This document shows positions 28,690 to 28,991 of a stretch of 30,703 nucleotides of DNA, piece after piece. The stretch spans positions 1 through 30,703 of the IMG/VR virus record IMGVR_UViG_3300032284_000500. The stretch is one strand, 5' to 3'. This DNA is from a virus. The position numbers and the translations under genes are program-made. The stretch's first letter is position 1. Every line of letters starts with the position of its first letter. The notes beneath the pieces were generated by a model, which was not told the origin of the DNA, did not search any database, and saw nothing but the letters and a program-made list of their open reading frames with translations.

Positions 28690-28899
28690 TTACTTCTTAC
28701 TCATACCTGGCTTTTTAGAGATCTGTTTGATCTTCTTTTCGTCCCAGGCGTTGTCTTCTTTCATAGTCTTTTTAGTTGACTTAGGTTGCTTCTTATCAGC
28801 CTTCTCAAAAGCCTTCTTGCCCTTAGGAGTTAAGTTTTTGGTGTCTTCCTTATCCTGAGGCTTGTCGTTCTTTTCGTTGTAAGGCTTAGACTTGGCCAT
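28690..28899 (-). CDS. Lysine-rich small protein (69 residues)
   Basis: 23 of 69 residues are lysine, with Asp/Glu, Asn, Gln and Pro making up most of the rest; no hydrophobic core is visible, so it is probably disordered in isolation. Segments such as PKGKKAFEKADKKQP recall histone-tail-like DNA-binding peptides. It is the last gene before the terminator and its ATG overlaps the stop of the cysteine-rich peptide (TAATG). It could bind packaged DNA or an acidic virion surface. No family recognised. Confidence 0.75.
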   Translation of the reverse strand: MAKSKPYNEKNDKPQDKEDTKNLTPKGKKAFEKADKKQPKSTKKTMKEDNAWDEKKIKQISKKPGMSKK

Positions 28900-28991
28900 T
28901 ACTTCTTGGCTCCCTTACATGTTGAGCAGGAGCACTTACAGCCCTTAACTTGCTTAGCTTTGGTGCATTTACATCCACACTTAGCGCACAT
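28899..28991 (-). CDS. Metallothionein-like cysteine-rich peptide (30 residues)
   Basis: A complete short frame with ATG at 28991 and TAA at 28899. Eight of 30 residues are cysteine, in two mirrored clusters: C2-x2-C5-x-C7-x-C9 and C18-x-C20-x-C22-x2-C25. Every other position near them is Lys, Ser, Gly or Thr, with no aromatic residue, as in metallothioneins. An AAGGG ribosome binding site lies about eight bases upstream, and the stop overlaps the next ATG (TAATG). It should bind about two to three divalent metals if it folds like a thiolate cluster. It could instead be a knuckle-like DNA or protein binder. Motif seen; function inferred. Confidence 0.7.
   Translation of the reverse strand: MCAKCGCKCTKAKQVKGCKCSCSTCKGAKK

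Follow-up and report, generated by a model that had tools for sequence, protein, structure and literature searches.

A conserved small phage gene encoding a cysteine-rich peptide with a HypB-like N-terminal head and predicted metal binding

The open reading frame at positions 28899-28991 of the window (the entire IMG/VR record, 30,703 bases) is a true phage gene under purifying selection and not a chance reading frame; its reality is accepted because conservation in relatives settles it. As judged by sequence comparison, the 30-residue product belongs to one branch, the 8-Cys branch, of a large overlooked virus family whose members span 2-10 cysteines and share as their constant part the head M-C-x-x-C-G-C. 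The peptide is predicted to bind metal through this head, and on balance it probably does. The fuller reading, a phage-specific thiolate metal-binding peptide composed of a HypB-like N-terminal hook, a metallothionein-like extension and a basic tail, is judged about evenly poised between right and wrong.

The peptide gene and its neighbors

The peptide gene lies within a tight run of small Lys-rich genes that has a 197-aa protein on its upstream side and, downstream, a 199-aa protein resembling a tail terminator. The features of the region are given below in descending coordinates.

29684..30277, minus strand: 197-aa protein, the upstream anchor, with a relative in Borockvirus-type Streptomyces phages that has the capsid-side genes on one side and the tail terminator on the other
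29548..29694, minus strand: 48-aa small protein, MPFKSKAQ...
29400..29570, minus strand: 56-aa Lys-rich small protein read from an ATG start, with a longer form to 29588 in the ORF list
29188..29400, minus strand: small Lys-rich protein of 70 aa, another member of the island
28994..29188, minus strand: 64-aa Lys-rich protein with His11, His25 and His56, a relative of which is found next to the Cys peptide in L082, a locus from another phage lineage
29002..29007, minus strand: AGAAGG, Shine-Dalgarno-like by direct reading of the sequence, 10 bases upstream of the peptide ATG and inside the Lys-rich 3' end of the 64-aa gene
28899..28991, minus strand: 8-Cys peptide MCAKCGCKCTKAKQVKGCKCSCSTCKGAKK, with the HypB-like head M-CxxCGC at residues 1-7, C9 and a second cluster C18xC20xC22xxC25
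28690..28899, minus strand: 69-aa Lys-rich protein; the relatives L024, L015 and L116 carry its LTPKGKKAFEKADKK part as a C-terminal extension of Cys heads
28651..28677, minus strand: intrinsic-terminator-like hairpin of 11 pairs (-21.5 kcal/mol, z -6.9), closing the small-gene run after the 69-aa gene
28402..28566, minus strand: 54-aa protein, the first gene past the terminator-like hairpin
28131..28409, minus strand: 92-aa protein, the downstream anchor
27532..28131, minus strand: 199-aa protein, related to a protein of Streptomyces phage GiJojo that bears the annotation "tail terminator"
25964..27484, minus strand: tail sheath protein (PF17482)

The peptide frame is closely packed with its neighbors, the 64-aa ORF upstream stopping 2 bases short of it and its own stop codon overlapping the ATG of the 69-aa ORF by one base (TAATG). 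The eight cysteines reported by an earlier sequence-only reading, which gave no strand, are found in the minus-strand frame at residues 2, 5, 7, 9, 18, 20, 22 and 25 of 30 and make up 27% of the peptide, forming four CxC and two CxxC motifs. Residues 2-7 read CAKCGC, the spacer between Cys9 and Cys18 is TKAKQVKG, and Trp, Tyr, Phe and His are all absent (aromatic residues 0/30). An ORF with at least eight cysteines and at least 25% Cys arises in 1 of 300 first-order Markov sequences built from the window.

The hairpin at 28677-28651 is followed by a T-rich tail, and none of 200 shuffles is equally stable. Among the 69 relatives that have a Cys ORF, 40 show a strong hairpin in the interval from the last such ORF to the tail terminator, compared with 1 of 41 downstream control stretches, these being 800-nt stretches in the sheath-gene region whose length is matched only roughly. 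Among the other small genes, the protein at 29400-29570 has a segment of 47 residues that shares 70% identity with hypothetical proteins from phages of Bradyrhizobium and Agrobacterium, by sequence a wide spread for so small a gene. The three histidines of the 64-aa protein (28994-29188; relative at L082:7150-7374) are invariant in five aligned sequences, and the protein, which neighbors the Cys peptide in each of two phage lineages, is a possible functional partner. Elsewhere in the window, positions 5662-6627 encode a primase-type protein with a CHC2 zinc finger and a Toprim domain, and positions 8657-8950 give a weak SWIM zinc-finger match (E=0.016, below the cut-off).

Conservation, family anatomy and spread

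Conservation of the gene is most directly seen in a set of 80 loci fetched with the tail-terminator alignment alone, so that their choice is independent of the Cys peptide, 10 of which were dropped for having less than 900 nt upstream of the tail terminator. In 69 of the 70 loci kept, the 1250 nt preceding the tail terminator contain at least one MCxxC-starting ORF. Several of the loci are near-identical contigs, and the counts are dependent through common descent. These 85 ORFs correspond to 54 distinct peptides, 51 of which begin MCxxCGC. The cysteines, whose loss in relatives of the same gene order had been set beforehand as counting against the gene, are thus kept, the one exception being a contig (L023/L220) with no Cys peptide in its island. 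Across the three sense frames of the 70 loci (1250 nt each) CxxCGC occurs 80 times and follows directly after an ATG in all 80, the N-terminal start being inferred for the few ORFs that have an additional in-frame start codon upstream.

A DNA pattern with fixed codons for Met, four Cys and one Gly, plus two other fixed codons, has at least 120 matching stretches in IMG/VR. Among the matches listed and the other loci examined, 147 occurrences give 105 distinct proteins, all with 6, 8 or 10 cysteines and thus all (105/105) with at least two beyond the four that the pattern fixes. Outside the pattern columns the matches listed give a pN/pS of 0.21 (20 distinct 8-Cys modules) and 0.16 (85 distinct 6-Cys modules); these ratios, rough as synonymous differences are near saturation, are in line with purifying selection. 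In the same modules the free Cys columns show TGT/TGC changes and no replacement. The placement in the late structural region proposed earlier is also supported, as among the matches listed 115 of 120 loci have a relative of the 197-aa protein upstream and/or of the 92-aa, 199-aa, sheath or tube protein downstream on the same strand; 76 of the 120 have anchors on both sides, the 197-aa relative, wherever it occurs, lies on the expected side, and five loci (L082, L084, L120, L132 and L160) have no anchor.

The branches of the family differ in what follows the head. In the 8-Cys branch the head is followed by xC and then KGCKCxCxTC, invariant in 15 aligned members, and in the 6-Cys branch by GCSKPxCKGAC. 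The 3-Cys branch continues with KPKDKHG, in which the histidine is nearly invariant, and another branch with KKKGEPGFGKGPK, with or without a CTCGTCKxC end. Rare variants have four cysteines (MCKVCGKPGCKGKC) or two and a histidine (MCATCAKH). The near-mirror arrangement CxxCxCxC / CxCxCxxC, emphasized in the sequence-only reading, is present in the window peptide, but as a defining trait it is confined to the 8-Cys branch. In the unbiased set 21 of the 54 distinct peptides have three cysteines only and three have two or four. The K+R fraction is 0.32 in every Cys class counted, and aromatic residues, absent from the window peptide, are present in other branches.

The tails are interchanged between members and comprise short Lys tails, a calcium-loop-like LDxDKDGKLEGSDFAALR and a GMSPKQKAAFEKADKK tail. 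The GMSPKQKAAFEKADKK tail aligns with the separate 69-aa protein of the window, so that a Cys head standing alone here is joined to a relative of its neighbor in other loci such as L024. A C-terminal calcium loop is found behind Cys heads in L005, L015, L085 and others and is degenerate in some relatives; one L015 protein matches Dockerin_1 (E=0.002) and EF-hand models (E=0.0067 and 0.01), all below the cut-off. To go by its sequence, the combination of Cys head and calcium loop is possibly a two-metal-type small protein.

Other small Cys-rich frames are seen in these loci. Directly after the 3-Cys peptide of L264 the reverse strand encodes a 43-aa protein, MCKKCNKVKCTCSSKCKTCNKGKCTCSPKK... 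(ORF 1241-1372, reverse-complement numbering), in which a CxxCxxxxCxC unit is duplicated and for which Pfam gives no match. A different small Cys-rich type lacking the MC start, for example MPECKCQNCTCGKGG... or ...VTCGCGGCTCQ..., sits about 660-960 nt upstream of the tail terminator (L242, L246, L248, L249, L231, L235, L236, L239 and L240). A zinc-ribbon-like ORF, RPARPWDLFNKN...ICxxC...CxxCGCxM..., recurs in many relatives (L183, L188, L193, L206 and others), some 2000-3100 nt before the tail terminator.

A pattern search for the 3-Cys type has at least 120 matching stretches, and among the matches listed it yields 117 readable peptides, 98 of them distinct, with at least one anchor gene in the loci of 106. 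Of the 11 anchor-less loci among the matches listed, six (L275, L282, L326, L337, L344 and L354) have the peptide upstream of a terminase gene; the terminases of L282 and L344 match PHROG terminase families, the L282 portal matches a portal family, and the terminases of L275, L326, L337 and L354 are assigned by eye. A WhiB is confirmed in L337 and L344. L256, L313 and L355 appear unrelated, and L264 and L277 make up the 11. The 8-Cys form occurs in a third setting (L082 and L120), the L082 copy being near endolysin-like, HNH-like and terminase genes and next to the relative of the window's 64-aa protein. Head-bearing peptides thus appear, by sequence, in at least two further phage lineages, and a neck-specific structural role is unlikely because the head recurs beside terminase or endolysin genes in these other lineages.

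The relatives are presumably mostly freshwater, to go by contig numbering and paper context. Judged by sheath and tail terminator, the closest relatives in culture are the Streptomyces phages BRock, GiJojo, LuckySocke, Alone3 and pSt2308. Cultured Borockvirus-type Streptomyces phages have a spike or other long genes after the 197-aa relative, with the tail terminator coming next, and no small-gene island is annotated in BRock, GiJojo or LuckySocke. The window encodes a WhiB protein (PF02467, E=5.8e-19), which passages of PMC6802176 and PMC10202952 treat as an actinophage marker. The host is probably actinobacterial, because a WhiB is encoded and the nearest cultured relatives are Streptomyces phages. 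Searches of INPHARED cultured phages by tblastn with the window, L005, L116 and 3-Cys type peptides, and of PLSDB plasmids with the 3-Cys type, return nothing, although low-complexity masking may hide such peptides. Seven pattern matches in cellular genome contigs are all (7/7) unrelated or random frames by eye, in a search requiring exact spacing that a divergent relative could escape.

Comparison with known metal-binding proteins

Metallothioneins are small proteins with a very high content of Cys in CxC and CxxC motifs and few or no aromatic residues. The window peptide resembles them in size, in CxC/CxxC density and in its aromatic content of 0/30, and is similar to Neurospora crassa MT (1t2y) and bacterial SmtA and MymT in being tiny and about a quarter Cys with both CxC and CxxC. 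The N. crassa end GCSCSNCGSK, matched to 1t2y, resembles by eye the GCKCSCSTCK half of the window peptide. The metallothionein likeness noted in the sequence-only reading holds for composition and motif density but does not extend to family membership, as none of 15 8-Cys members matches a described metallothionein family in Pfam at E<=10 and NCBIfam gives none relevant, HMMER bias filters being able to hide weak Cys-rich matches. The phage family also differs in having a 3-Cys N-terminal head as its core, with many members having three cysteines only. SmtA differs further in its zinc-finger fold, as described in PMC7558416.

The closest likeness is to the nickel site of E. coli HypB, where the CXXCGC motif holds Ni(II) in planar geometry with a subpicomolar Kd, the ligands being Cys2, Cys5, Cys7 and the N-terminal amine, according to the review PMC7055735. 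The window peptide has the same Cys 2, 5 and 7 and Gly6 directly after the initiator Met, a likeness that the sequence-only reading did not mention. It differs in being encoded by a phage, in lacking the GTPase domain (30 aa, no domain matched) and in having five extra cysteines and a Lys tail. The NCBIfam model HypB_prefix_1 is matched by 16 of 16 3-Cys members, with a best E of 1e-4 and a score for member 1 of 22.3 bits compared with the curated cut-off of 30, and by none of 15 8-Cys members. The likeness is one of a shared motif, with a likely shared grip on metal; a motif and not homology is claimed because the matches fall below the cut-off and the 8-Cys members have none, and common ancestry is not proposed. 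The fixed M-C start in 80 of 80 occurrences is consistent with Ni(II) binding via the N-terminal amine.

Similarity to EF-hand and dockerin calcium loops is restricted to the LDxDKDGKLEGSDFAALR-type tail carried by many 6-Cys and 3-Cys relatives; it is below the Pfam cut-off, the loop is degenerate in other relatives (KIAGKAGDPKKIDAADLAALR), and the window peptide lacks it. A profile search of the PDB gives no sequence match, and the AlphaFold2 model of the peptide (pLDDT 81, pTM 0.40), which is set aside, finds no match in the PDB with Foldseek. An open-access literature search finds no phage metallothionein or phage nickel chaperone by title or abstract start.

Proposed function and alternatives

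In the favored reading the three cysteines of the M-CxxCGC head, probably together with the free N-terminal amine, would grip one soft metal ion (Ni, Zn or Cu) as in HypB. In the window branch C9 and the C18-C25 cluster would supply extra thiolates to form a small multi-metal cluster, metallothionein-like in nature, and the Lys-rich tail would probably hold the peptide on a polyanion such as nucleic acid or virion DNA. The peptide would be made together with the products of the head and neck genes, and its most likely task would be to capture or carry metal in late infection. Even the 2-, 3- and 4-Cys variants still offer candidate ligands (Cys, His, amine) enough for one site.

The strongest counter-argument to the hook is that its ligands fit equally a zinc-knuckle virion or packaging protein, in which the Cys head folds on one structural Zn, the Lys tail binds genome DNA or a head protein and the metal is not cargo. 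Such a protein would account for the structural-gene neighborhood in 115 of 120 loci among the matches listed and for the uniform K+R fraction of 0.32; a single Zn site suits the 4-Cys and 3-Cys plus His variants, a small gene neighboring the L082 peptide has a partial match to a "minor head protein and DNA pilot" profile, and tails fused to unrelated basic modules could serve a structural role. It is nevertheless considered somewhat unlikely, as a Cys count ranging over 2-10 at equivalent places is unusual in a structural finger and the location varies by lineage, before the terminase, beside the endolysin or at the neck. A classical metallothionein-like buffer, storing several Zn, Cu or Cd ions non-selectively and guarding late infection from metal or oxidant stress, is suggested by the CxC-dense, aromatic-free window peptide with its 27% Cys and by the growth of the Cys count to 7, 8 and 10 in some members. 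This is improbable given that the 21 distinct peptides with three cysteines and the three with two or four have too few for a multi-metal cluster, and that described metallothionein families give no match. The HypB-like hook is favored over a general metallothionein because the only constant part is the N-terminal three-Cys head while the Cys count ranges from 2 to 10.

The WhiB genes of this phage and of two second-lineage loci with the peptide bring to mind a thiol redox or counter-defense peptide whose targets would be the thiol pool of the host or Fe-S regulators like WhiB, but profile searches recognize no oxidoreductase family and the fixed N-terminal position is left without explanation, making this very improbable. 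That the gene is a chance ORF in Lys-rich coding DNA, as its 93 bases and its absence from all family libraries searched might suggest, has a negligible likelihood and is rejected on its conservation (69/70 loci), selection (pN/pS 0.21 and 0.16), ATG-fixed motif (80/80) and rarity in shuffles (Markov 1/300).

A broader extension of the metal-hook reading, doubtful as it stands, is that freshwater actinophages have a nearly universal late metal-hook gene, shared among at least three lineages, whose product would consist of a free-standing N-terminal site of the HypB kind for Ni(II) (or Zn/Cu) joined to a basic tail, with 2-10 cysteines. The product would be a dedicated viral peptide for metal acquisition or delivery, perhaps packaged with the genome or taking nickel or zinc from host enzymes.

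The presence of the peptide in 69 of 70 comparable loci suggests its importance to these phages, and genes of this kind, of about 25-85 codons, are missed by the family libraries searched. The Cys heads and basic tails point to a modular trade between neighboring small genes. If the N-terminal hook binds metal, these phages would manage metal with proteins of their own, and the peptide would provide a minimal natural model of the HypB nickel site.
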